A stretch of 64,000 nucleotides of DNA from Paulownia fortunei (lineage: Eukaryota; Streptophyta; Magnoliopsida; Lamiales; Paulowniaceae), in assembly GCA_019321725.1 (NCBI GenBank), contig CM033116.1:7272841-7336840 (forward strand). Direction: 5' to 3'. A model generated the notes under the pieces. The model saw nothing but the letters and a program-made list of their open reading frames with translations. It made no database searches and was not told the DNA's origin. The translations under genes were made by a program, and so were the position numbers. This document shows, in pieces, positions 26,984-47,436 of the stretch. How positions within the stretch are numbered: the stretch's first letter is position 1; every line of letters starts with the position of its first letter.

Positions 26984-28784
26984 TGTTAGAGATAGTGCCC
27001 TCAAAGCATGTAATAGTATATTAATTGCTAAATTAAAAAAATAATATTTGATACTTGTTTTTATGCATATTGGTATGCTAGTGAATATCAGAAAATTCTT
27101 GTTTATTTATATAACCATAATCTTAGTATATAATTGTTACATACAAGAGGTTTAAGATTATGGATAATAAACTAAATTAGTCCATACTGAAATTAATCAA
27201 AATTGAATTTTTTTAAAATCATTATTAGTAAAATCCATTAATATTTAAGAATATAATGATCTTATCCAGATTATTAATATGGTGATGTTATAATGGAGAC
27301 ACTTTATATAATATGATTATATAGGATTAGACCAGATATAATTTGAAATTTCACATAATTTTTGTTATTTTCTTAAAATTTAAATAACATCAATAGATGA
27401 TCATATATTGGTTGATCTTAATCCTGAGTGGTTATACAATCCTATTTATTTTAGTATGATATTTGATTTGCTCGTTAAAAATTTATTAGTTAGCATTCTT
27501 GAACATTTATATTTTTTGATCATATTGGGATAGATAGTTGGGAATATATCTTACAGATATGGAAATCATATCTTCACGCGGAAAGTGAAAAGACGTTTTT
27601 CTTGATTAGTTAATTCTGAAACTGAATAGTAGAGCGTTCAAATTTATAATCTGGTTATAAATTAATTGTTCACTAGTAAATTAATGGTAGATAAGGAATA
27701 ATATATAATTAGAGAGATTAATGAAAAACCTAGCTCTAATTATGATTCGTCTTTGGATGGTCACACTATATGTGATGATTATATCGATAGATTACTCAGT
27801 ATTGATCATAGTTAATTATTCTATAATTACTAGAATACAATTCTAGAATTTTAGTAGAGTAATATTAGAATTAATAAATTGGATGAATTAATTAAAGAAT
27901 TTAATTAATTATCTGAACTTATTGAAGTTTGCAATTATAGTCCATAGGTCCCCAATCCACCTTCATAAATACTGAAATGGATTTTATGTAATAAACTTAA
28001 TTGTACTTGTAATTGTAGAAAATTATTTCCAAAATTGGGTATTAATTATAAATATAAAAGATTATTGGAAATATCTGATATTGTTAGATAATAAATAAAT
28101 ATGAGATATTTATTTTGATATTTATAATTATTATCTTGAATTATGAATTCTATATAATTGCTAAGGAAGTTAGAAATAACTTTCCTATCAGATAAGGGTA
28201 TTTGCCTATTAGAGTTAGAGGATGATTAGGAAACTACTAATTCTATAAGTATAAAAAGGGAATCTCTCTCTCTCTCTCTCTCTCCTTGACTACATGTTTT
28301 TTACACCAAGAGAGATAAAAGAGAATCTTTCCCTTTCTCTTTCCTAAGAGATACATTATTTTCTAGAGAAGAGTTATCTAGACTTTTGCTAAATATATTC
28401 CTTTCCCTCTTCTAAATCCAGTTTTGTGATTTTATGAGTTGAAAATATAACAAGATAACTTATACAGTATAATTTAATTTAGTGTTAAGAATACCTACTC
28501 ATTCCCATTGATGTAGAGGCTTAGATTGAAAGACATTGGTGTTTGATTCAATCAGATTGAAGCATGGTGAGGAAGACTTGGAGATTCTAAAAACATTATT
28601 AGAAAAAGAATTGATTATTCCTTTCAGGGTATATTTTCTAAAACTCTCTTGAATATAATTGTTATATTTTGTAGAACTGATTAAAATTAGATATTCATAC
28701 AACTATATTAATTTTGTGAAAAATTTTATAGTATCGGGAAATAAATCAAAATTATTTTTATATAATAAGAATTAATTTCCAACA
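26984..28784 (+). repeat. 5' LTR of the nested Copia element
   Basis: It begins TGTTAGAGATAGTGCCCT and ends TTTCCAACA; the 3' LTR begins TGTTAGGGATAGTGCCCT and ends TTTCCAACA. It keeps a promoter segment (TATA-like AGTATAAAAAGGG at 28249-28260 followed by (TC)n) that is deleted from the 3' copy. It lacks a ~30 bp GACACCGCATC segment present near 47352. Confidence 0.9.
28249..28285 (+). promoter_or_regulatory. TATA-like box and (TC)n start region in the Copia 5' LTR
   Basis: AGTATAAAAAGGG is followed directly by a (TC)n run at about 28263-28284. A TATA box followed by a pyrimidine-rich tract suits an LTR promoter and start. The matching part of the 3' LTR is lost. Confidence 0.5.
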
Positions 28785-28799: not shown

Positions 28800-30124
28800 A
28801 GTTTGTATGAATACTATATTTTTAATCTTAAGTATGCATAAGTGGGTATTTGTATTATTGAATGCATTTTTTGATTATTATGAATGATTATATCATTTGA
28901 TAGATGCATAGTAATACTTTTTGGTCATTATTATTTGGTTCCCTTGGATTGCATGGTTGATGTAATTATTTTTTATTAGATAAAAAATTGTAAACCTTAT
29001 ATTTATTGTATAGTATATTTGTAAATTTTGCCAAATCTCCATACCTCGCATGATGGAGATCATATGAAGATGGAGTTGAAGAAGTAAGAAAATTTGCAGA
29101 TTTTATGTAATTATATATTTTATTTTTCTTTTATTTCTTTTTGGGTTGTAATTTAGTATCTTAGGGAACTCGGCCAAAAACATCATTTATTATTTATTTA
29201 TTTGATGAATGTAGGAGATACAAATTGCCACGCATAATCATATGTCATTCATAAAACCTACTCTTAGTCATTAGGAATATCACGTATACTTGTCATCATT
29301 TAAATAATTTAATATGTAATATCTTATAGGATAGGAGATGAACTTGGAATAATCGATTAAAATTATAATTTTGATTTAATAGTTAAATTTGATATAATCA
29401 CTATTTTATTTAGGCTTTAATTATTAAAGAGTTAATAATTATTAGCTTAGGTTATTCTAAATAATGAACTTAGATTTTTTTAGAAAAATCTGATAATTAG
29501 GTAAGCCCAATAGGATTAGACAACTTAGCTAGAATATATTAATGTATAGAGATATGATAATTATAATCATTCGATGTTTGGAGAATACTAATTGTAAAAT
29601 AATGAATGGGAGAGGGGTATATAATAATGTATTCCACGATCTCCACTATTAACACAACACTGTGAGATTTAAATGATACCTCGTGATGCTTTGATTTCGT
29701 CTTCCCTATGGAGGGTGTTCATTTAAGTCAATAGTAAGGCTGGTTTCTAAAAGATAGGATTTTTCTATGTATTTCAAAATTGACCTACCCTACGATGGCA
29801 ATTTTGAGTTAAGTTGATAAAATCCAAAATAGTGGATCACACCCATAAAGATATAACTAAAGTTAGTTTAGCTACATCATGATCGATTTAAATGGTAATT
29901 CATAAATAGATGAAAATATGAGATATTTTATTGATTCATTTATTAATTGAGATATTCTCTATTCAATCATCTTTAGTATAACCTACCCTACAGCGGCATG
30001 TTAATTGTGAGATTGAGTTATCATGAAATTAGTAAATATAAATGCATCATGTTTACTATTCTGAATTTTTAATTTGATATTCATACAAGTATTGAATATT
30101 ATCTATTTATTAATTTCAGCACTC
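28800..30124 (+). other. Leader of the nested Copia element
   Basis: About 1.3 kb between the primer-binding site and the gag start, AT-rich and non-coding. Two similar phrases, GACCTACCCTACGATGGCA (29771) and ACCTACCCTACAGCGGCATG (29981), are about 210 bp apart, suggesting an internal duplication. Confidence 0.5.
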
Positions 30125-30623
30125 ATGTTTGTTTCAAATCCTATTCTTGCATTACTTACTAATGAAAAGTTGACTGGAGAAAACTTTGTTAAGTGGAAAA
30201 GTAATATATTTCCACTTGTCTATGAAAACTTCAAATTTGTCCTTATAGAGAAATGTTCTCAAGAACCTGCTACCAATACTCCTTGTAATGTACTAGAGAG
30301 CTATGTAAAATGGATTACAACCAATAACAAGGCTCGTGCCTATTTGTTAGTTGGCATATCTGATGTGCTTAGACTGAAGCATAAAAAGATGGAGATTGCT
30401 TATGAGATAATGGAGTCTCTATAGGCTATGGTTGGGCAACCTTCCGAACAATTGCATCATGAAGCTATGAAAATGGCTATTAACGCAAAGATGTAGAAGG
30501 GAACCTCAGTTAGGGAACATGTTTTGAACACAATTAACTACCTGAGCGAGGCTGAAATCCATGGTGCGACCATTAATGAGCGCACCCAAGTGAGTATGAT
30601 TTTAGAATCACTCTCACCGGCTT
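30125..30623 (+). pseudogene. Copia gag, 5' part, cut by the Gypsy insertion
   Basis: The ATG at 30125 opens MFVSNPILALL, then LTGENFVKWKSNI, a usual N-terminus of Copia gag (UBN2 family). Stops lie at 30422-30424 and at 30494, but similarity continues beyond them to QVSMILESLSPA. The reading frame then meets the Gypsy LTR at 30624 and resumes at 42663. Confidence 0.85.
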
Positions 30624-32250
30624 TGATAAGTGCATATTTTGACATAATTTTGTATCAAATCCTTTATATTTTTCTTACTTTATTCTTGTTAATATTCTTG
30701 TTTTATTAATATTTTGTGTTAGGAAATCAATGAATATAAAAAGATCAAAAGAAACATATTTTTGGACTTGTGCAGTTTTTGTATTTTGAGCATAACTTTA
30801 TGATCAAAAGCCCTATGGACTTGAAGCTTATTCCACTTGAAAGCCAAGAGATAAAAGTACAATGCTTTTGTTGGAAGCCCAGCCTAATTCAATCTTAATT
30901 ATAGCAAAAAATTTATCCAAGTGGTTGTATAAAATGGATCACTAAAATTCGGATAAGAGTTCAACCTAGTATTGACTTATTTGACCAATTGAGTCATATA
31001 TCTTCAGTTCAAATTTATTTTGGGCTAACATTTGGATATGTTATACAAAAGAGGTAAATAAATAAGTTATCTTCATACAAGATGATGAGAAAATGTGTCA
31101 TAATGGTAAAACCATAGGTTGCAAATTGCTATTGCTGTTAAATGATGACTTTTGGACATGATTCAGTAACTTGACTATATCTCCTTCATCCGACTGCCAA
31201 ATTTGACAAAATATATATGAAAATATATTAGCACCAAAGATCTACAATTTTTATTCTACTCATCATCAAAATTTGGATGTATTGGACCTAAAAAGGTAAT
31301 TCAATTCGGTAGGTGAGGACTTAGTGTAACAACTTACCAACTTTTGGCAACTAGTATACCACTTGATTAACCCCTCCATTATTTATTTAGCCTCTACCTT
31401 ACTCCAAGTATTATAAATAGACCATGTATTAAGCTTGTAAGAGATGGGGGTAGAGGGTTTCTTTAGGCTAAGTTTTATAATATGTATGTTTTCTAGTAAT
31501 GTAAGTTTTCTTATAGTAATAGAAATGCATTTTCTAGTTTTTTTTTCTATTTTTACTCTTTCCTACTTTTATTATGTCTTTCTAAATTTTATTTTGTTGA
31601 GAATAAAGGGTGAATCTCTTGATGGAGGAAGTTGAATGGTTATAAGGATATAAAATGTTTAAGTATGTTTTATTATTATTTTGAGTTTTAATCTAAACCC
31701 TGCTTGTTTCGTGATGATTCTTGATTTATGTATCTTCAATAACACAACTTATACTTAGGTTCATTTAGCTTATTATACGGTTTTACCCCACCGACTATTA
31801 ATATAAAATCTTGATTTGTTGTTGATAAAGGTGTGCATAAATGCTTAATCCCATAAATAAGTGTTGGCGTTAAGAGATAATGTGCAATAGTAAGACAATA
31901 TTATGATTACCTTATTGCGTGAGTTATTTGATAATATCTTCCCATTAGAACCTTCATTATGTATAGATTTCAATACTGGCAATTAATAGAGGTAAAAATA
32001 ATAAATAGTCATTTCTCTATCCAAAACTTAAGAGTGAATCTCTAATTCTCAGTACTTTTATTATTTTGGTTTTTCTTTAGTTACATCATACATTAATTGT
32101 TCATATATTTTGATTAACATAAATCCTATTTTTTTAGAATTATGATCCTGAATTCTTCAAGCAACTTTCCTGTGGATCGACCACGAACTCATGAGAAAAT
32201 TATTACTTAATACAACCTGTACTTAGGTTTGCAACCTTAAAGTTATAGCA
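30624..32250 (+). repeat. 5' LTR of the Gypsy element
   Basis: 1627 bp, starting TGATAAGTGCATATTTTGAC and ending AAAGTTATAGCA. It aligns along its whole length with 41038-42661; sampled stretches look close to nine in ten identical by eye. A TATA-like TATTATAAATAG lies at 31409-31420. The small frames inside are not genes. Confidence 0.95.
31409..31420 (+). promoter_or_regulatory. TATA-like box in the Gypsy 5' LTR
   Basis: TATTATAAATAG is kept in the 3' LTR as TACTATAAATAG near 41822. It is the likely LTR promoter, about 785 bp from the LTR start. Confidence 0.5.
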
Positions 32251-32256
32251 AGTTTT

Positions 32257-32274
32257 TGGCGCCGTTGCCGAGGA
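32257..32274 (+). other. Primer-binding site of the Gypsy element
   Basis: TGGCGCCGTTGCCGAGGA begins six bases after the LTR. TGGCGCCGTTGCCGGGGA-type sites, complementary to an Asp-type tRNA, are usual in Athila/Tat elements. Confidence 0.85.
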
Positions 32275-32499
32275 AGGTAAGGTAAGTATTCAGTTTTGTT
32301 AATATTTTTTCTTTGTAAATATAGTTTGTTTATTTTCTTTATAGATATATGGTTATATGGTTATATGGTATTGTAGTCATAATTCTTGGCGTTTAGTTAG
32401 AAATAATTCTAAAACTTTATTTGAAAATTTGTTTGAATCATCTTCACACACTTCTACCATAGCTGAAAATAAAAGTGTTCAGGATGAAAATAAGAATCA

Positions 32500-34959: not shown

Positions 34960-35890
34960 TGGACCATTGTTGATATTAAAGGTATTTAATCCTTTCATTT
35001 ACACACATAACATGTATCTAGAGAAAAATGCTAAGCCTTCTAGAGAAATGCAACGAATGCTAAATGCTAATATGAAAGAAGTAGTGAGAAATGAAGTCAT
35101 TAAACTCTTAGATAATGGAATCATTTATCCTATTTTTGATAGCAAATGGGTAAGTCCTACTCAAGTAAGAAATCGGGAGTTACTGTAGTCAAGAATGAGA
35201 ATGATGAAATAATTCCAACTAGAATTGCTACTGGTTGGCGAATGTGCATTGACTATAGGAAACTCAGCTCAGTTATTAGAAAAGATCATTTTCTATTACC
35301 TTTCATGGATCAAATTTTGGAAAGAGTTGTGGGACATGAATTTTATTACTTTTTAGATGAATATTTTGGGTATAATCAAATTGCAATTGTACTTGAAAAT
35401 CAAGAGAAAACAACTTTTACATGTCCTTTTGGTACTTTTGCATATCAAAGGATACCTTTTGGATTATGTAATGCACTGGCTACATTTTAACGATGCATGC
35501 TTAGTATTTTTAGTGGCATGGTTGAACATTTTCTTGAAGTCTTCATGGATGATTTTTCTATTTTTAGTAATTCATTTGATGATTGCCTATCTAATTTAGA
35601 AAATATTTTGATCAAGTGTGAAGAAAAGAATCTTGTGATCAATTGGGAGAAATGTCATTTCATGGTAACAACTGGTATTATTCTTAGACACATTATTTCA
35701 TCAAAAAGTATTGAGGTTGACAAATTTAAATTTGAGTTAATTACCAATTTGCCAACACCAAATACTGTGAAGGAGGATAGATCATTTTTAGGACATGTTG
35801 GTTTTTATAAAAGATTTATCAAAGATTTTAGTATAATATCTAAACCTTTGTGTAATCTTCTAACAAAAGACACTATTTTTTAATAGACTG
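34949..35890 (+). pseudogene. Gypsy reverse transcriptase, broken
   Basis: Three overlapping frames give the fingers and palm: EVIKLLDNGIIYPI, GWRMCIDYRKLSSVIRKDHF, FYYFLDEYFGYNQIA, TFTCPFGTFAYQRIPFGLCN, then after a stop the catalytic VFMDDFSIFSNSF (35539-35577) and later GHVGFYKRFIKDFS. The usual FLDGYSGYNQI is changed to FLDEYFGYNQI, but the catalytic MDD is kept. Frameshifts near 35150 and a stop at 35488 disable it. Confidence 0.9.
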
Positions 35891-35922
35891 ATTGTGAAAA
35901 TGCTTTTGTTAAACTTAAAAGC

Positions 35923-36474
35923 ATGCTTACATCTGCTCTAATCATGCAGCCTTTAGATTGGATTTTATCTTTTGAAATAATGTGTGATGCTAATGATTAT
36001 ACTGTTGGGGCTGTCTTGGGACAAAGAAAAGATAAGAAACCATATGTTATTTACTATGCCAGTAAAACTTTAAATAGTGCTCAATTAAATTATACAACAA
36101 CTGAAAAAGAATTACTTGTTGTAGTTTTTGCATTTGATAAATTTCGATCTTATCTTGTTGGCTCACTAGTTGTTTTTTTCAGTGATCATGCAACTTTGAA
36201 ATATATTTTGTTAAAAAAAGTTGCCAAATCGAGATTGATTAGGTGGATTCTCTTACTTCAGGAATTTAATTTTACGATTCGAGATAAGAAGGGAGTAGAG
36301 AATATGGTGGCTGATCATTTGTCGAGACTTGTTTGGGATGACTCATTTCAAACTACACCTATTAATGACACTTTCCCTGATGAACAACTATTTAGTGTTT
36401 TTATTTTACCTTGGTTTGCTGACATTGTTAATTTTTTTGTGATAGGAAAGATGCCATCGTATTGGAACTCTTAA
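35923..36474 (+). pseudogene. Gypsy RNase H
   Basis: The three acidic positions are visible: [36 protein letters not shown] and [27 protein letters not shown] marks the end of the domain. It is open for 183 codons but separated from RT by a stop at 35881-35883. Confidence 0.9.
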
Positions 36475-37640
36475 GACAAAAAGAAGTTTTTGACTGAGGT
36501 GAAAAACTTTTATTAGGATGATCCATACCTGTTCAACTATTGTCCGAATCAAATCTTTCAAAGATGTGTACCTGGCAATGAGATAGGTAATATTGTCAAA
36601 TTTTGTCACTCAAAAGCATGTGGTGGTCACTTTTCAGTAAAGAAAACTATTGCAAAAATTTTGCAATGTGGATTTTATTGGCCAACTCTTTTCAAATACA
36701 CTTACACTTTCTGCAAAAGTTGTGAAAATTGTCAAAAGTTAGGGTCTCTTTCAAAGTGAAATATGATGCCCCCTACACCCTATCCTAGTGATTGAAATAT
36801 TTGATTGTTGGGGTATTGATTTTATGAGACCATTTCCATTATTATTTGGTTTTCTTTACATATTGGTTGCCATAGATTATATTTCAAAATGGATCGAGGC
36901 AATTCCTTGTTGAAATAATGATAAAAAAATAGTGATAAATTTTTTGAAAGAAAATATTTTAAGTCGATTTGGAATTCCTCGATCTATTATCAGTGATGGG
37001 GGAAAATATTTTTTGTAACAAAGTTTTTGAAACTTTGATGAGTAAATCTGGAATCATTCATAAAGTTGCAACTCCTTATCATTCTTAGATAAATGGACAA
37101 GTTGAGCTTACAAATAGGGAAGTAAAATAAATTTTAGAAAAAATAGTTTACCCAAACCGTAAAGATTGATCTCTTAGACTTACCGATACACTTTGGACAT
37201 ATAGAACTGCTTTCAAAACATCAGTAGGCATGTCTCCTTATAGAATAGTTTATGGAAAACCTTGTTATTTACCTGTTGAACTTGAACATAAAACTTATTG
37301 GACAATCAAAATATTTAACTTCAACCTTGATGAAGTTTCAAAATTATGCGAATTGCAAATCAATGAACTTCAAGAACTGAGAAATGATGCATATGAGAAT
37401 TCTAAAATTTATAAAGCAAGAATCAAAGATTTTCATGATAATAAAATTTCAAGAAAAATATTTGAGGTTGGTAAAAAGGTTTTGCTTTATAATTTTCGAT
37501 TGCATTTGTTTCTTGGAAAATTGAGATCAAGGTGGAGTGGTCCTTTTATAAAAACGTATATCCTTATAGGGCGATTGACATTGAAAATCCTAAAAATGGT
37601 AACATATTTAAAGTAAATGGACAAAGAATTAACCCATTTC
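36475..37640 (+). pseudogene. Gypsy integrase, broken
   Basis: The zinc-binding region reads GGHFSVKKTIAKILQ, GFYWPTLF and KSCENCQKLG. The core follows with [29 protein letters not shown] and SRFGIPRSIISDGGKYF, covering the two Asp positions of D,D(35)E. 37230-37616 gives MSPYRIVYGKPCYLPVELEH and VLLYNFRLHLFLGKLRSRW, the C-terminal GPY/F-like part. Several stops lie between 36720 and 37160. Confidence 0.88.
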
Positions 37641-37992
37641 TAGAAAATCAATTTTCACAAGAGGAAATTCTTTTTCTTTCTAACCCTTATTATGATTAGT
37701 GTTGTGTGTGTGTGTGTGTATATATATACTCATTTTCTCTGACTTTATTGTTCTGAAAGTTTTTATTTTATTTTATTTTTTTTCTTTTCCCGATTAAGTG
37801 GAGGATAATGGTACTCCGTGGCTATTAAAGTTGGACTTGTCAGTTTCCCAAATAACTGAAATCTTTGTACAATTTTTCTCTGCTTTTCTCATTCTCTTTT
37901 CTTGTTCTTTTCAAAATGAGTGACATTTTCTAACTCTCAAGAAGCGATTTCCTTTTCTTTCTAAAAATGCAATTTTAAAAATTTATAAAATC
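37641..37992 (+). other. Spacer after integrase with a (TG)n(TA)n run
   Basis: The pol frame ends near 37700. (TG)n then (TA)n lie at about 37703-37730. AAGTGGAGGATAATGG near 37797 resembles the internal purine-rich tracts seen after pol in Athila-like elements. Confidence 0.5.
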
Positions 37993-38379
37993 ATGATTGA
38001 AAGATTGAGGATGCTTATGCACAAGGGCATCCTGGAGGATATACGATGGATAATTGAAGCAAAGGTAAAAGCAGGTGAGTTTTCACATGAGTTTCTAGAT
38101 TTGCTTACTAGATACATGTCTGGTTTTGGTAAAAACACATATTCAAAAAAACGAAGGGCGAAAAAAATGAAAGTATGTCACAATTGTGCTAGATGGACTT
38201 GCAACACAAAGTGTCGTTCTTTAGGAATGGTCTCTAAAAATCAAGAAAATAAACTTAAATTCAATATGGATGGAATGAGTAAGGAGTCTTTAGATCACAT
38301 TATATTGACTCTTGAGACACATTCATATGGATTGGTACAACGTGCAATTCTTGATTTATGGGATCATTTTCAAAAATGA
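37993..38379 (+). CDS. Unrecognised 128 aa protein with a Cys4 motif, inside the Gypsy element
   Basis: An uninterrupted ORF between integrase and the LOG-type ORF. Residues 1-45 look helical (MIERLRMLMHKGILEDIRW, then FSHEFLDLLTRYMSGFG). Residues 51-60 are very basic (SKKRRAKKMK), a possible nuclear localisation or nucleic-acid contact. C62-x2-C65-x4-C70-x3-C74 (VCHNCARWTCNTKC) is a plausible zinc site. The C-terminus ends LVQRAILDLWDHFQK. I do not recognise the family. It could be a retroelement accessory protein, a second captured host segment, or a partner of the LOG ORF 264 bp downstream. It is free of stops while gag and pol around it are broken. Confidence 0.55.
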   Translation: MIERLRMLMHKGILEDIRWIIEAKVKAGEFSHEFLDLLTRYMSGFGKNTYSKKRRAKKMKVCHNCARWTCNTKCRSLGMVSKNQENKLKFNMDGMSKESLDHIILTLETHSYGLVQRAILDLWDHFQK

Positions 38380-38643
38380 ATATGAGTTTTATAGTCTTGG
38401 GAATCTGATATTAAAAGACCCTATTTGCTAGTTCAAAGAAAGATGTGAGCCACAATCACAACTACATGTATATTCACGTCTAAGTAGGTAATTTTTAAAT
38501 TTTATGTGTGACCTTATTTTCAACCTTTTTGATAAAAGAAAAAGACATGTAATAAATGTCTTCCCTATTCACACCTCAACAAATATCATCGTACTCACTC
38601 TATTTTTGTACAACTTATTTTCAAAAATAAAAAAAATAAAAAA
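38380..38643 (+). other. Spacer upstream of the LOG ORF, ending in an A-rich run
   Basis: 264 bp between the two extra ORFs. It has no GT..AG pair that would join them convincingly. The last ~20 bases before the LOG ATG are almost pure A with two T (AAAAATAAAAAAAATAAAAA), followed by ATGAAAG. Confidence 0.5.
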
Positions 38644-39270
38644 ATGAAAGTTTCTTCAACTCACAAATTCAATTGCATTTGTGTTTTTTGTAGATCCAAT
38701 CTAGAAAAAAATTATGAGTTTATAAGGGCAACCAATAACCTTGGTAGAACTTTAGTAGAAAGAAAAATTCATTTAGTGTATGGGGGAGGTAGGTTGGGGT
38801 TAATGGGGAGTGTTGCTATTTCTGCTTATGTAGGAGGAGTCAAAGTTCTGGGAGTTATCTTAAAATCTTTAACAATACAAAATATCACAGGTATGATCAT
38901 TGAAGATGAGCTAAAAGTGTTACATATGCAGGACATAATGCCTAACATGTTAAACAATGCGGATGCATTCATCATTCTTCCTGGTGGTTTTGGTACACTG
39001 GAGGAATTATTCCAAGTTGTCTCTTGGGCACAACTCAACATTCACCAAAAACCTATAGGTATTCTTAATGTTAATGGTTTTTATGATGGTTTGCTATATT
39101 TTGTAGATCATACTGTGAAAAAAGGTTTTATTTCACTGTCTGCGAGAAGAATCCTCATTTCTGCTTTGACACTTGACCAGCTGATTGATCAATTTCAAGC
39201 ATATATGCCAGAACCTGATCCAGCCTTGGTGAATATGGATTGGTCCAACAGGAACTATGGTCAAAAATGA
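38644..39270 (+). CDS. LOG-type (cytokinin riboside monophosphate phosphoribohydrolase-like) protein captured in a Gypsy element
   Basis: Intact, intronless, 208 codons, near the usual plant LOG length. It has VFCRSNLEKNYEF (residues 14-26), LVYGGGRLGLMG (44-55), the signature PGGFGTLEE (113-121), WAQLNIHQKPIGILNVNGFY and GFISLSARRILIS. LOG enzymes release free cytokinin bases from their riboside 5'-monophosphates in the cytosol. Plant LOG genes normally have several introns, so an intronless copy between integrase and 3' LTR points to cDNA capture. One change matters: the usual MHxRKA segment reads MQDIMPNML, so the conserved Arg is Ile98, while Glu121 is kept. Catalysis is therefore doubtful. 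Fold assignment is confident; function is not. Confidence 0.9.
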   Translation: MKVSSTHKFNCICVFCRSNLEKNYEFIRATNNLGRTLVERKIHLVYGGGRLGLMGSVAISAYVGGVKVLGVILKSLTIQNITGMIIEDELKVLHMQDIMPNMLNNADAFIILPGGFGTLEELFQVVSWAQLNIHQKPIGILNVNGFYDGLLYFVDHTVKKGFISLSARRILISALTLDQLIDQFQAYMPEPDPALVNMDWSNRNYGQK

Positions 39271-41037
39271 AAATTGAATTTGACTCTCAGTTTGTGATAC
39301 TTATTGTTAATGTTTTCATCTAATAGTATGTGTTTGTTTTTTGTTATTTCAGTTTTATTTTTTTAGCCATACTTCAAGTGATATCTTTCAAACTCTACTT
39401 TTCTATCTATTTTTGACATTGGGGATAATGTCTCGATTAGGTTTGGGAGAGGGATAGTTGATATCATGACTTCTGTGTTCAATGTGTGTTTTTCTAGTAT
39501 TTTATTTCAAAATAAAAATAAAAATCAAGCGTGTTTTCTGATTGGTCCGTTGAAATCATGAAAAATGGTGGCTGAGTAAAGGGTAATTGTAACACTCTTG
39601 AGATGTATCCCTATTTATTTTTTGCATAACATGGTAAGTTTGTGAAGTTTTTAATAAATGTTTGTGAATTACCAATTTTTTTTAAAAAAAAATTGAGTCG
39701 TAGAGGTTCTTCCAATTTCAATGATTAAAATTAAGCATGAATAATGTGGTTTGATTGATGATGGGTGTTGTTTTGGACTTTGATGTTGTTATTTGTTTAA
39801 TGTATTTTTGCGATAATTATACTCAAATTGTTTTGCACAAATAGTTATGTTATTCAGTGTGAAGACAATCATGACAAAATAGGAAGTTCTTATGCTCTTT
39901 TTCTAATCATCACTTGGATCTTCAATATGTAGGGGTTGAATATTAAAACTTTTAGTTTTGATCTGTCGAGGTGAACGACTGATAGTGCACCGCTAGAAAA
40001 ATGATTAAGGCATTAGGCTTTCTAGCACCATTGCCAAATCAACTAGTTCTCCATATGATATTTCAAGAGAACATCCCCCTAATGAACCACTTTGAGCCTT
40101 TTAATAAATAAATATTTTTTGTAACCATATCTTTTTACTTAGCCTAAATACATTATTATCCAACCCTTGTTCTAAAAATGATTGGAGTTTAAGAGATATT
40201 CCATTGACAACGTGCACTTACAAAAAGAATTCAGATTAGAATAGAAGATAAGTGTGGGGGAGTTTCTCTTTTAAAACAAAATCGTAAAAAAAAATAAAAA
40301 AATATAAAAGTAAAAAAATTGCAAAGTGCTATGTGTTGCAACTAAAAATGAGATGTTTCAAGATGAATAAGAGGGGTCCAATTCAATAACAATAGACCCC
40401 AGTATTGAAATTGGTGGAGTTTGAGAGTTCTTCATCGATAAACTCTATGTCTCTAATTTTATGAAGTTTTTAGAACCTTTGTTGCATTCTATTATTTTAT
40501 TTTTTAGCTACATCACTGCCCTTTGACCCCATTACAATATTTGTTGAAGACTTTTTAATTTCGTGTGATGCCTTCTATGTAGTGGAGATTTACACCAAAT
40601 GAAGGACTTATGATGTTTAACCTTTTTATTAGAGATTGGGTGATGATTTTTGTAAGGTTTTATGAGAATTCACTTATTTGAAGCATGTATAGTTTTGTCA
40701 CTGTTGACATTAACTATCCACACACACATTTGAGTATGCTTATTATGGAAATGTATTGACTTTTGAATGACTAAGAGTTGAACTCAACACTTGTTTGATT
40801 TCATTTCCATTACTTTGTTGCTTTATGAGAATAATAGTTGGAGGATAGTTATTATAGGTGTTTGTGGGTATCACTGAAAACCTTCATGAGATTATAACTC
40901 GTCCTCTATGGGCCATCTAGGGGTTTAAAGGCTTGTTTCATATGCCAAATACAATCGTGATTTCCTACGAAAGTGGATTAGTTTAGGTTTGTTTTAGGCT
41001 TGCTCGAGGACAAACAAGGGTTAAGTGTGGGGGAATT
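39271..41037 (+). other. 3' non-coding region and polypurine tract of the Gypsy element
   Basis: About 1.77 kb without ORFs. Two G-rich tracts, AAGTGTGGGGGAGTTTC (~40249) and AAGTGTGGGGGAATT (41023-41037), lie in it; the second touches the 3' LTR and is the plus-strand primer. A third purine-rich stretch (GTTTGGGAGAGGG) is near 39440. Repeated tracts in a long 3' region are usual for Athila-like elements. Confidence 0.7.
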
Positions 41038-42661
41038 TGATAACTGCATATTTTAACATATTTTTGTATCAAATCCTTTATAATTTTCTTGCTTTATTCT
41101 TGTTAATATTATTATTTTATTAATGTTTTGTGTTAGGGAATCAAAGAATATAAAAAAATCAAAAGAAGCATATTTCCAGACTTGTGCAGTTTTTGTATTT
41201 TGAGCATAACTTCATGATCAAAAGCCCTATGAACCTGAAGCTTGTTTCATTTGAAAGAGAAGAAATAGAAGTACAACTTTTATGTTGGAATCTCAGTCCA
41301 CTTCAATCTTGATTATAGTAGAAAACTTGTCCAAGTGGTTGCACAAAATGGATCACTAAAATTCGGATAAGAGTTTGACCCAGTATTGACTTATTTGACC
41401 AATTGGTTCATATCTCTTAAGCCAAATTTATTTTGAGTTGAAATTTGGATATGTTATACACAAGAGGTAATAAATAAGTTTTCTGAATAAAAGAGGTGAG
41501 AAAATGCGTTAAAATAGTAAATACATAGGTTGTAATTTGCTGCTGCTGTTAAAGGACTGATTTTGGACACGATTCGGTAATTTGACTATATCACCTTCAT
41601 CTGACTGCCAAATTTGACAAATGATATATGAAAATATATCAGCACCGAAAAATCTACAACTTTTGTTCTTACTCATTATCAAAATATGGCTATATCAGAC
41701 ATAAAAAGGTAATTTAATTCGGTAGGTGAAGACTTAGTGTAACAACTTACCAACTCTTGGCAACTAGTATACCACTTGATTAACCCCTCCATTATTTATT
41801 TGACCTCTAGCTTACTCCAAGTACTATAAATAGGATATATATTAATCTTGTAAGAGACGAGGGGTAGAGGGTTTCTTTAGGCTAAGTTTTCTAATATGTA
41901 TGTTTTCTAGTAATGTAAGTTTTCTTGTAGTAATAGAAATATATTCTCTAGTTTTCTTCTATTTTTACTCTTTCCTACTTTTCTTATGTCTTTCTAAATT
42001 TAATTTTGCTGAGGAAAAAGGGTGAATCTTTTGATGGAGGAAGTTGAATAGTTATAAGGGTTGAAAATGTTTAATTATGTTGTATTATTATTTTTAGTTT
42101 TGATCTAAACCTTGTTTATTTTGTGGTGATTCTTGATTTAGGTATCTCCAATGGCACAACTTATACTTAGGTTCTTTTAGCTTATTGTACGGTTTTACCC
42201 TACCGACTGCTAATATGAAATCTTAATTTGTTGTTGACAAAGGTGTGCATAAATGTTTAATCCCATAAATAAGTGTTGGCGTTAAGAGATGATGTGTAAT
42301 AGTAAGTCAATATCATGATTACCTTATTGTATGAGTTATTTGATAATATCTTCCATTGAAACCTTCATTATGTATGGATTCCAATAGTGGCAATTAATAG
42401 AGGTAAAAAGAATAAATAACCATTTCTCTATCCAAAACTCAAGAGTGGATCCCTAATCCTTAGTACTTTTATTACTTTGATTTTTCTTTAGTTACAACAT
42501 ACATTAATTATTCATATAATTTGATTCACATAAATCCTATTTTTTTAGAATTGTAATCTTGAATTCTTCAAGCAACTTCCCTGTGGATCGAACTCGTACT
42601 TACGAGAAATTTATCACTTAATACAACTTGTACTTGGGTTTACAACCTTAAAGTTGTAGTA
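41038..42661 (+). repeat. 3' LTR of the Gypsy element
   Basis: 1624 bp, starting TGATAACTGCATATTTTAAC and ending AAAGTTGTAGTA; the terminal CA seen in the 5' LTR is TA here. It has the same order of landmarks as 30624-32250. Substitutions are spread evenly, so the insertion is old. AGCTT follows it. Confidence 0.95.
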
Positions 42662-42662
42662 A

Positions 42663-43010
42663 GCTTTCCTGCAGTTCAAAAGCAACTATGTTATGAACAA
42701 GTTGAGTTATGATATGACTCGATTACTTAATGAGTTGCAGACCTTCGAAGTAATTTCCATTGGAAAGGCTAAAGAAAGTGACGCAAATGTTGCCGCGGAT
42801 AAGTTATCTTCCTCAAATAATGGTAAGAAGAGGAAGAATCAAAAGGGTAGTTTTGGAACTCAAAAAGACAAAAAGAAAGGTCGTAAAGGCAAAAAGAAGG
42901 ACGACTCCAAGAAACAACCTAAAGAAAAGTGCTTCCTTTGTGGAGTTGAGGGGCATTAGAAGAGAAACTGTCCAAAGTATCTCTTCGAGTTCTAGGAGAA
43001 GGGGAAAGGT
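42663..43010 (+). pseudogene. Copia gag, 3' part with CCHC knuckle, beyond the Gypsy insertion
   Basis: Gag resumes as FLQFKSNYVMNKLSYDMTRL, in frame with SLSPA at 30609-30623 once the insert and one target copy are removed. A Lys/Gly-rich stretch follows, then the knuckle CFLCGVEGH-x-KRNC at 42930-42971, with a stop (42957-42959) inside it. Confidence 0.9.
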
Positions 43011-43039
43011 AAATATAATTTACTTATTCTTGAAACTTG

Positions 43040-43380
43040 TTTAGTAGAAGACGATTCGTCTTCTTGGATAGTTGATTCGGGAGCCACTAATCATGTTTGT
43101 TCTTCTGTGTAGAAACTTAGTTCTTCTAAGGAACTTACCGAAGGGACATTCACGATGACAGTTGGCAATGGAGCCTTGGTTTTGGCAAAAGCAGTGGGAG
43201 ACGATCATCTTATTTTTAGGAATAAATATTTAGTTTTGGACAATATTTATTTCATTCCTGGTTTTCATAAAAAAATGATTTTTGTTTCGAAATTGCTTAA
43301 ACAATTATTTGGTATTTCTTTTTATAATAATGAGATTATTATTTCTAGAAATGGTTGGATATTTATCATACAAAGATAGA
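43040..43380 (+). pseudogene. Copia protease
   Basis: WIVDSGATNHVC at 43065-43100 is the Copia protease active site with D-S-G intact. A stop follows (CSSV-x-KL). FTMTVGNGALVLAKAVGDD and LDNIYFIPGFHKKMIFVSK are the standard downstream blocks. Confidence 0.88.
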
Positions 43381-44420
43381 AAGTGGGCTTTATGTGCTTA
43401 GGCCCAATGAACAACCATTGTTTAATATCGAAATGTGTAAAGTAGAACATCCTAAACCTAAGAGGCAAAAGGTTTCTCAAGAGGATGAAACGTGTCTTTG
43501 GAACCTAAGGTTATGGCATATTAATATTGATAAGATAAACAAGTTAGTAAAGGATATTCCTTTAAGAGAGCTAAAAGTTGGAACTCTTTCTATTTGTGAA
43601 TCTTGTTTAGAGGGTAAAATGACTAAGAAACCTTTCACTGGAAAGGGCAACAGGGACAAAGAACCACTTGAGCTTGTACATATTGATGTTTGTGGTCTAA
43701 TGACCATAGAAGCTAGAGGTGGTTATGAATATTTCATCATATTTATTAACGATTATGCTAGATATGGTTTCAGTTACCTAATGTAAATAAAATCTGAAAC
43801 TTGTAGAAAGTTTAAAAAATTACAAGCAGAGGTCGAAAAGTAATTAGTTAACTCCTTAAAGTCTCTAAGATCAGATCGAGGAGTCGAGTATATTTGATAC
43901 TGAGTTCAAGGACTGTATGCTAGAATCAACTCTCAACACTTAGAACTCTTCAACAAAATGGTGTTGTTGAGAGGAGAAATCGAACTTTACTTGATATGGT
44001 GAGTCCATGATGAGCCACTCTTCATTACTAAATTTATTTTAGGGTTATGCACTACAAACTGCGGTGTATATTTTGAATATAGTACCATCCAAGTCTATCC
44101 AAAACACTCCCTTAGAGTTGTGGAATGGTAGTAAACGTACTTTACGTCATTTCCACATATGGGGGTGTCTGACACATGTACTTAAAGAAAAGGTTGAAAA
44201 GTTGAAACCTCGATCAGAGGTGTGTTTATTTGTGGGATACCCCAGTGGTACAAAAAGAGGTTTGTTTTATACCCCTAAAGATAAAAAGGTAATTGTGTCG
44301 ATAAATGCGATATTTCTTGAAAATGATTATATAACAAAATTTAAGCCTCGTAGTAAAGTTGTATTACAGGAGTTACTTTTTGATGAAATCAGACCACAAC
44401 TAACAAGAGCTGTTAGATAA
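43381..44420 (+). pseudogene. Copia GAG-pre-integrase and integrase
   Basis: 43355-43786 gives WNLRLWHINIDKINKLV and ICESCLEGKMTKKPF (zinc-binding part), then PLELVHIDVCGLM and YFIIFINDYARYGFSYLM (first two acidic positions). 43790-44060 is broken. 44064-44420 resumes with NTPLELWNGSKRTLRHFHIWGC and FVGYPSGTKRGLFYTPKDKK. Confidence 0.88.
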
Positions 44421-45776: not shown

Positions 45777-47436
45777 TGTTAGGGATAGTGCCCTAAAAGC
45801 ATGTATTAGTACATTAATTGCTGAATCAATAAAATAATATTTGATACTTGTTTTTATGTATATTGGTATGCTAGTGAATATCAGAAAATTCCTATTTATT
45901 TATGTAACCATAATCTTAGTATATAAGTGTTATATACAAGAGGATTAAGATTATGGATAATAAACTAAATTAGTCCATAATGAAATTAATTAAAGTTGGG
46001 ATCTTTAATTAAATCATTATTAGTGCGGTCCATTAATATTGAGAATGTAATGATCTTATCCAAACTATTAATGTGGTGACATCATAATGGAGGCACTTTA
46101 TATAATATGATTATATAGGAATAGACTAGATGTAATTTGAAATTTTACATAATTTTTGTTGTTTTTTTTAAAATTTAAATAACATCAATAGATGATCATA
46201 TATGAGTTGATCTTAATCCTGAGTAGTTATGGATTCCTATTTATTTCAATATGATCTTTGATTTGCTCGTTAAAGGTTTGTTAGTTAGCATTCCTAAACA
46301 CTTGCATTTTGAGATCATATTGGGATAGGTAGCTGAGAATGCAATTTATAGATCTGGAATCCATATCTTCCCGTATGAAGTGAAAAGATGGTTCCTTTAA
46401 TTAGTTAATTCTGGAATTGAATAGTAGAACACTCAAATTTATAACTTGATTATAAATTAACTGTTCACTAGTGAATTAATGGTAGATAAGGAACAAGAGA
46501 TAATTAGAGAGATTAACGAAAAACCTAGCTCTAATTATTAATCGTCTATGGAGGGTCAAACCATATGTAATGATTATATCGATGGACTACTCAGTGTTGA
46601 TCAGAGTAAATTCTTCTATAATTCCAAGAGTGCAATTCCAGAATTTTAGTGGAGTAATCTTGGAATTAATAAATAGGATGAATTAATTAAACAGTTTAAT
46701 TAATTAACCAAATTTATTGGAGCTTGCAATTATAGGTCCATAGGTCCCAAATGCATCTTCATAAATACTGAAATGGATTTTATGCAATCAATTTAACTGT
46801 ACATGTAATTATAAGAAATTATTTCCCAAATTGGGTGTTATATCAAAGATTATCGAAAATATTTGATATTGTTGGATAATAAATAAATATTAGATATTTA
46901 TTTTAATATTTATACTTATTATCTTGTGCTGAATATTTAAAATATTTAGATAAATTTTAGATATTTATAATATCTTGTGCTGAATATTTATAATTATAAT
47001 TATTTCCTTACACTTTTGCTGAATATTTCATTTTCCTCTCCTAAACCCAGTCTTGTGATTTCATGAGTTAAAAATATCACAAGATATATTATATAGTATA
47101 ATTTAATTTAGTGCTAAGAACGCCCACTTGTTCCCATTGGTATGGAGGCTTGGACTGGAAGACCTTGGTGTTTGATTCATTCATATTGAAGCATGAAGAT
47201 TCTAAAAGTGTCATTATAAGAAGAATTGACTTTTTATATCAAGTTATGTTTTCTAAAACTCTTATGAATATAATTGTTATATTTTGTAGAACTGATTAAA
47301 ATTATATATATTCATACAACTATATTAATTTTGTGAGATTTTTTATAGTATCTGACACCGCATCTTTTCGTTGTGCCCGATTTGATCAGGAAACAAATCA
47401 AAATTATTTTTATACGATAAGAATTGATTTCCAACA
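45777..47436 (+). repeat. 3' LTR of the nested Copia element
   Basis: 1660 bp, TGTTAGGGATAG...TTTCCAACA. About 47,000 the promoter segment present in the 5' LTR at ~28140-28400 is replaced by short ATATTTATAATATCTTG repeats, so it has lost its TATA box. It keeps a segment near 47352 that the 5' copy lacks. Confidence 0.9.

Follow-up and report, generated by a model that had tools for sequence, protein, structure and literature searches.

Introduction

LONELY GUY (LOG) is a plant enzyme that activates cytokinin, and plant LOG genes normally contain several introns. In 2011, Steinbauerova et al. reportedly described a pair of Athila-like elements showing similarity to LOGL4. The occurrence of LOG in Gypsy or Athila-like elements is hence already on record, from 2011 and again from 2022. 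In the portion of the literature account consulted here, a LOG/YgdH domain is listed in the Gypsy consensus sequences of Citrus sinensis, Citrus clementina and Populus trichocarpa (PMC9289625). The same account states that extra genes in plant LTR elements are mostly without known domains, and that Ogre-like elements of orchids carry an m6A RNA demethylase domain reported as functional (PMC9289625).

The locus described below shares with the Citrus and Populus elements the presence of LOG as an extra domain of a plant Gypsy element, whereas the consulted portion of that account holds no pocket change, C-terminal tail, neighbouring open reading frame (ORF), copy analysis or members from Lamiales and Malvaceae (PMC9289625). 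As in the orchid elements, a plant Gypsy has acquired the domain of a host enzyme; the enzyme and the Gypsy lineage are different ones (PMC9289625). The plant LOG3 and LOG8 enzymes (PDB 2a33 and 1ydh) resemble the element-borne protein in fold, in the PGGxGTxxE motif and, for the family, in the catalytic Arg and Glu. Unlike them, the element LOG is intronless and element-borne, has Lys100 and Glu125 replaced and ends in an LxLxL tail, and the copy studied here lacks the catalytic Arg. Among the top results of open-literature searches, no paper described the combination of LOG with the viral-type Cys-rich ORF (CRP) at its side. Judging by the listed search results, what looks new is the family in Paulownia with its scale, the paired change in the pocket, the C-terminal tail and the neighbour of viral type.

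Results

A LOG-type ORF resides in an old Gypsy element of Paulownia

The window, i.e. the whole 64,000-nucleotide stretch of Paulownia fortunei DNA analysed (positions 7,272,841-7,336,840 of contig CM033116.1), contains a Gypsy element of ~12 kb, in which LOG lies in sense direction between the remains of reverse transcriptase, RNase H and integrase and the 3' LTR. The features are as follows:

30619..30623, no strand: 5' target-site duplication GGCTT; 4/5 bases agree with the 3' copy AGCTT
30624..32250, + strand: 5' LTR of the Gypsy element; 88.3% identical to the 3' LTR (blastn), ends read by eye
32257..32274, + strand: primer binding site (PBS) of probable tRNA-Asp type; copy L027 has it with at most one base changed
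32279..32290, + strand: predicted splice-donor-like site AAG/GTAAGT directly after the PBS; seen in the window copy and L027
33025..33471, + strand: gag-region piece with a CX2CX4HX4C knuckle, from sequence; no Pfam match
35143..36471, + strand: reverse transcriptase and RNase H, frame-broken; RVT_1 and RT_RNaseH matches
37170..37613, + strand: end of the integrase region, named by position and look; no Pfam match
37816..37830, + strand: candidate internal TATA box site; GGCTATAAAA in 17/20 fetched copies, altered in the window copy
37924..38434, + strand: viral-type Cys-rich nucleic-acid-binding ORF (CRP), broken; Carla_C4 match, extent by tblastn
38644..39270, + strand: LOG-type ORF, truncated, without catalytic Arg; from ORF, Pfam, structure-sequence match and copy comparison
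41025..41035, + strand: polypurine tract, read from sequence
41038..42661, + strand: 3' LTR; blastn against the 5' LTR, ends by eye
42662..42666, no strand: 3' target-site duplication AGCTT; 4/5 against GGCTT

This layout agrees with the first-pass annotation, which had placed LOG between integrase and 3' LTR in the same orientation inside a 4/5 target duplication and had described a broken pol and diverged LTRs. Two features go beyond it, namely the second extra ORF (CRP) upstream of LOG and the apparent nesting of the element in Copia-like gag. The K2P distance of the LTR pair is 0.125. At plant substitution rates of 1.3e-8 and 6.5e-9, this corresponds to an age of about 5-10 My.

Among the features of Ty3/gypsy elements, LTRs, target-site duplication, reverse transcriptase and RNase H were recognized, and the gag and integrase pieces were seen without Pfam match. 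The PBS string fits the 18-mer tRNA-Asp motif with one mismatch. As far as the consulted part of the source goes, a tRNA-Asp PBS is the type of Calypso and Diaspora (PMC1142308). Judging from PBS type, LTR size and layout, the element is probably of the Athila group, and we refer to it as 'Athila-like'.

The splice-donor-like site is present in both copies whose PBS region was covered (the window copy and L027). Retroviruses splice accessory messages from a donor-like site behind the PBS. The candidate TATA stretch is absent from the other 3/20 fetched copies. The internal TATA box is a weak candidate, given the youth of the copies and the appearance of TATAAAA in 7.6% of the shuffled versions of one stretch.

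The window copy of LOG is decayed

The ORF comprises 208 codons. It matches PF03641 with E 1.8e-32 (112.7 bits against a cut-off of 27), and its best match by sequence among solved structures is Arabidopsis At2g37210/LOG3 (E 6.5e-52, residues 7-205). The PGGxGTxxE motif is present as PGGFGTLEE. An open ORF of this length with a LOG signature had been proposed from the sequence, and this much was borne out. The ORF had also been called intact, which proved wrong: the frame stops 9 codons early compared with the 217 codons of relatives with a full frame, and the catalytic Arg (Arg99 of CgLOG) is missing. Openness over the full length holds in so far as most of the frame survives; the copy is nevertheless old and decaying and ends before its proper stop. 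The catalytic Arg is retained in 22/23 other translated Paulownia copies, L020 being the exception. The window copy is decayed and predicted to be inactive.

LOG is part of a multi-copy element family

A search of the Paulownia genome (509 Mb) with LOG yielded 4249 candidates, the best 150 of which were scored. All 150 match at E 4e-100 or better, and a stop is present in 60 of them (counted by eye). A chance ORF is rejected by these matches and by the Pfam result. Twenty copies out of the first ~40 rows of this best-150 list were fetched with flanks. LOG is found at the same place in 20/20, CRP in 18/20, the integrase end (37230-37613 in the window) in 17/20 and a downstream 3' LTR in 19/20.

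To complement this LOG-chosen set, copies were also chosen by pol. Among the best 150 of 7946 candidates of an RNase H search, 39 were located where the motif list was complete, and in 27/39 LOG follows RNase H downstream at a distance of 2.7-4.2 kb. Two of the 12 misses were fetched: one has a frameshifted LOG, and in the other the element sequence ends about 130 bases before LOG. Moreover, the family LOG motif QDRMPNM has 540 exact matches in the genome, with 0 for the reversed control. A host-type LOG motif has 17 matches, perhaps including duplicates on small contigs. This motif pattern was employed because a protein query for host LOG exons returned, as its best 150 matches, only long hits of 45-62% identity that are apparently element-type. 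The one host LOG that was fetched (L057) aligns piecewise with gaps between, whereas the element LOG is intronless.

LOG is thus carried by a multi-copy Athila-like Gypsy family of Paulownia between integrase and 3' LTR. The position shared by all fetched LOG-chosen and most pol-chosen copies and the lack of introns support the earlier proposal that the element captured a LOG cDNA and spread it. In three of the fetched copies (L012, L023 and L027), LOG is present and the integrase end is absent. In two of these, L012 and L023, an LTR piece of the same direction precedes LOG by a few hundred bases, which points to shortened forms of the element that retain its LOG part.

Most relatives share a changed pocket and a C-terminal tail

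A search for related proteins returned 5640 matches, and the best 120 were listed; some of these rows stand for over 200 sequences. The listed relatives come from Paulownia, Rehmannia, Orobanche, Reevesia, Xanthoceras, Populus and others. In the part of the source that we drew on, Arg99 and Glu122 are catalytic residues, and Lys100 and Glu125 belong to the adenine/prenyl pocket (PMC4979012). Of 116 listed relatives, 108 retain Arg99 and 113 Glu122, the PGGxGTxxE columns are kept in 110 to 115, and Trp129 is kept in 107. The pocket looks different. At Lys100 the same 116 sequences have Met (59), Ile (36), Leu (19) or Lys (2), i.e. M/I/L in 114, and at Glu125 they have Gln (76), His (32), Glu (2) or other residues (6), i.e. 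Q/H in 108. All 17 host LOGs (17/17) keep Arg99, Glu122, Lys100, Glu125 and Trp129, and the motifs RKAEM and EELLE occur in all 120 best matches of a LOG3 query. As both altered residues belong to the adenine/prenyl pocket, the enzyme may have come to act on something other than a cytokinin nucleotide.

The second departure is a C-terminal tail. LxLxL ends 89/120 listed relatives, from asterids and rosids, versus 0/120 best matches of the LOG3 query. These matches are mostly LOG1/LOG3-type, and the tail comparison covers that host type (the LOG8 chain lacked its end). The tail often combines a basic patch with LxLxL, as in KRKLNLTLSL and KKLRLDLSLSL; in Orobanche relatives the ending is a variant, e.g. 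IDAFLSL, that falls outside LxLxL. Among the 20 fetched Paulownia copies, the tail stays in frame in 19, with a stop ahead of it in two of these, and the window copy stops before it. LxLxL is given as a consensus of EAR repressor motifs in the consulted part of PMC9956375, and the relatives' tail contains the pattern defining such a motif (LxLxL or DLNxxP).

An AF2 model of one relative (P0001) reached a pLDDT of 85.7 and a pTM of 0.81, and its best Foldseek match is 2a33 (rmsd 1.0, TMt 0.95). Confidence falls below 50 at residues 202-213 and 215-217, and the tail is therefore likely flexible and exposed.

These observations allow for a protein that is no longer a cytokinin enzyme at all, with a pocket binding another nucleotide or none, and that serves mainly as an adaptor, bringing in TOPLESS-type co-repressors through its LxLxL tail. 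The joint change of Lys100 and Glu125 in most listed relatives, the distribution of the tail and its probable exposure all speak for such a repurposed fold. An adaptor, however, would not need the catalytic Arg and Glu that nearly all relatives keep; moreover, LxLxL is short, and the Orobanche variant falls outside it. We regard this explanation as possible though not probable. On balance, we favour a still catalytic protein: what the window holds is a decayed copy of a LOG gene carried by an Athila-like family, and the intact protein, judging from its residues and the model, is likely a nucleotide hydrolase that would release a cytokinin-type base where the element is active.

Nearly all sampled element-type LOGs form a clade apart from host LOGs

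A first tree was built from 116 of the 120 listed relatives (4 were dropped by length) and two Arabidopsis LOGs. One branch (100/99) unites the Paulownia group (12 rows, 4 of them named) with Rehmannia (6) and Orobanche (9); the 45 Reevesia rows make up another (100/100). That the sequences sort by host order suggests that they have persisted vertically for a long time. A second tree contained 38 sampled relatives and 17 host LOGs as a block. Here, 37/38 sampled relatives fall on one branch (100/99) apart from the host LOGs, and Xanthoceras P0090 is placed between the other relatives and the host LOGs. Among these plants, the location inside a Gypsy element was observed here for Paulownia.

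Because P0090 keeps Lys100 and Glu125, has no tail and sits outside the rest, it may be a separate capture. Extending this to independent captures in each plant lineage that came to look alike could also account for the Citrus and poplar elements named in the literature. The single branch of the other 37 sampled relatives, and the pocket change and tail common to most listed relatives, make so many parallel events improbable. The changes shared with relatives from other plants suggest that the elements kept LOG for long and that they likely adapted it to purposes of their own.

The element-type LOG clade includes two Populus sequences (P0044 and P0120) that carry the database name LOGL10. Gene models labelled 'LOG' or 'LOGL10', such as these two and the Reevesia rows, may thus in some cases not be host cytokinin genes, and counts of the LOG gene family may include retroelement genes.

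The family LOG shows moderate signs of purifying selection

Five copies picked by a 21-base motif alone were all frame-broken (5/5), indicating that many copies are dead. For dN/dS we employed 23 better copies, after dropping L001, L002 and L004-L006 as the window or duplicates. The comparison between element copies gave a dN/dS of 0.27 at dS 0.049 for LOG; values were 0.47 for RNase H and 0.38 for the reverse transcriptase piece (7 copies each) and 0.62 for CRP (12 copies).

LOG variants shared by at least 2 copies, which likely arose in transposing lineages, number 13 changing to 16 silent (omega-like 0.30, binomial p 0.0014), judged against a neutral expectation of 2.7 to 1 changing to silent with transitions weighted twofold. 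Singletons number 36 changing to 20 silent (omega-like 0.67, p 0.17), plus 2 stops. Shared variants and singletons do not differ significantly (Fisher p 0.11), and drawing the sample from the best-matching LOGs lowers N/S; the evidence for purifying-type selection on the family LOG is therefore moderate. The idea that selection had acted on the protein thus gains moderate support for the family, and the window copy itself is damaged. Conservation of the protein across plant orders is the stronger argument for selection than the variant counts.

LOG might instead be a functionless hitchhiker that is open merely since many copies are young. The broken motif-picked copies, the broken window copy and the low dS among the compared copies would be expected from such a passenger. 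Its difficulty lies outside Paulownia: among the matches listed, relatives from Rehmannia, Orobanche, Reevesia and Populus have 52-65% protein identity at nearly equal length and retain the catalytic residues and mostly the tail. Together with the departure of the shared variants from neutrality, this already strains the explanation, which we consider quite unlikely. The intronless ORF and an A-rich stretch before its ATG could have indicated a processed pseudogene of a host LOG inserted into this single element, the case that the first-pass annotation had named as its own refutation. Such a pseudogene is ruled out for practical purposes by the same position in all 20 fetched copies, by closest genome matches (best 150 of 4249) that are other element copies and by sampled relatives branching apart from host LOGs.

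CRP resembles viral nucleic-acid-binding proteins

In Paulownia copies, CRP lies ~235 bases upstream of LOG. It runs in a single frame over about 175-186 codons in 10/20 copies, a count that tolerates in-frame stops and leaves out L019 (42%). The window CRP matches Carla_C4 (PF01623) with 25.3 bits against a cut-off of 20.9. Of three other Paulownia copies, 2/3 pass PF01623 and 0/3 pass Viral_NABP (PF05515). A homology search with CRP gave 369 matches, the best 120 of which were listed and nine tested; 7/9 pass PF05515 and 7/9 pass PF01623, with a best Viral_NABP E of 1.2e-08. Besides passing these cut-offs, CRP shares with carlavirus-type nucleic-acid-binding proteins four spaced cysteines in a basic region. 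It differs from them in its length of ~182 aa, its occurrence in plant genome records and its place upstream of LOG in an LTR element (Paulownia). Viral nucleic-acid-binding proteins include silencing suppressors.

A PDB sequence search with CRP gave no match, and its AF2 model was poor (pLDDT 62.8). The CRP tree, made by a quick method, was too poorly resolved for comparison with the LOG tree. Within Paulownia, CRP showed no sign of selection, its shared variants being 6 changing to 1 silent. CRP and LOG matches in equally sized sequences (8723, 1730 and 2128) hint at both lying on one contig; other equal sizes looked coincidental. Searches of viral contigs with CRP and LOG alignments found no relatives.

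A model for the LOG-bearing elements

Because introns are missing and the changes are shared, the uptake of a spliced LOG transcript is likely old. An ancestral Gypsy element would have acquired it once or very few times. LOG would then have stayed in transposing lineages, with selection removing amino-acid changes. With the catalytic residues retained and an altered pocket, the protein would most likely yield a free cytokinin-type base, released where the element is expressed. The local rise of a cytokinin-type signal might favour dividing, meristem-like cells, whereby new insertions would be passed to daughter cells. The exposed tail may dock a TOPLESS-type co-repressor, as motif and model suggest, and CRP, by analogy with its viral counterparts, might bind RNA and blunt silencing.

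More speculatively, and in our estimation doubtful, Gypsy elements of many eudicots would own an accessory cassette in which a virus-type RNA-binding protein and a re-tooled hormone enzyme with a co-repressor tail are expressed from an internal promoter, the element silencing defence and driving division. If true, this would be a plant counterpart of oncogene-carrying retroviruses, with a cassette like that of a complex retrovirus. The LOG family makes it bench-testable what an extra gene does for a plant LTR element, since the reaction of the enzyme is known, its active pair is conserved and it departs from host LOGs in two shared ways (pocket and tail).

The surroundings of the element

The LOG-bearing Gypsy element seems to be nested inside a Copia element (26984-28735, 45777-47352, 30065-30421 and 42663-44417). 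Gag-like pieces without Pfam match flank the Gypsy insertion on both sides, GAG-pre-integrase and SH3_retrovirus domains lie downstream, and there is an outer LTR-like repeat pair (86% and 82%). A 92-base fragment at 26615-26705 matches the beginning of the Gypsy LTR with 82-84% identity. Further downstream, a 760-base stretch at 62168-62926 matches its own reverse complement at 81%.
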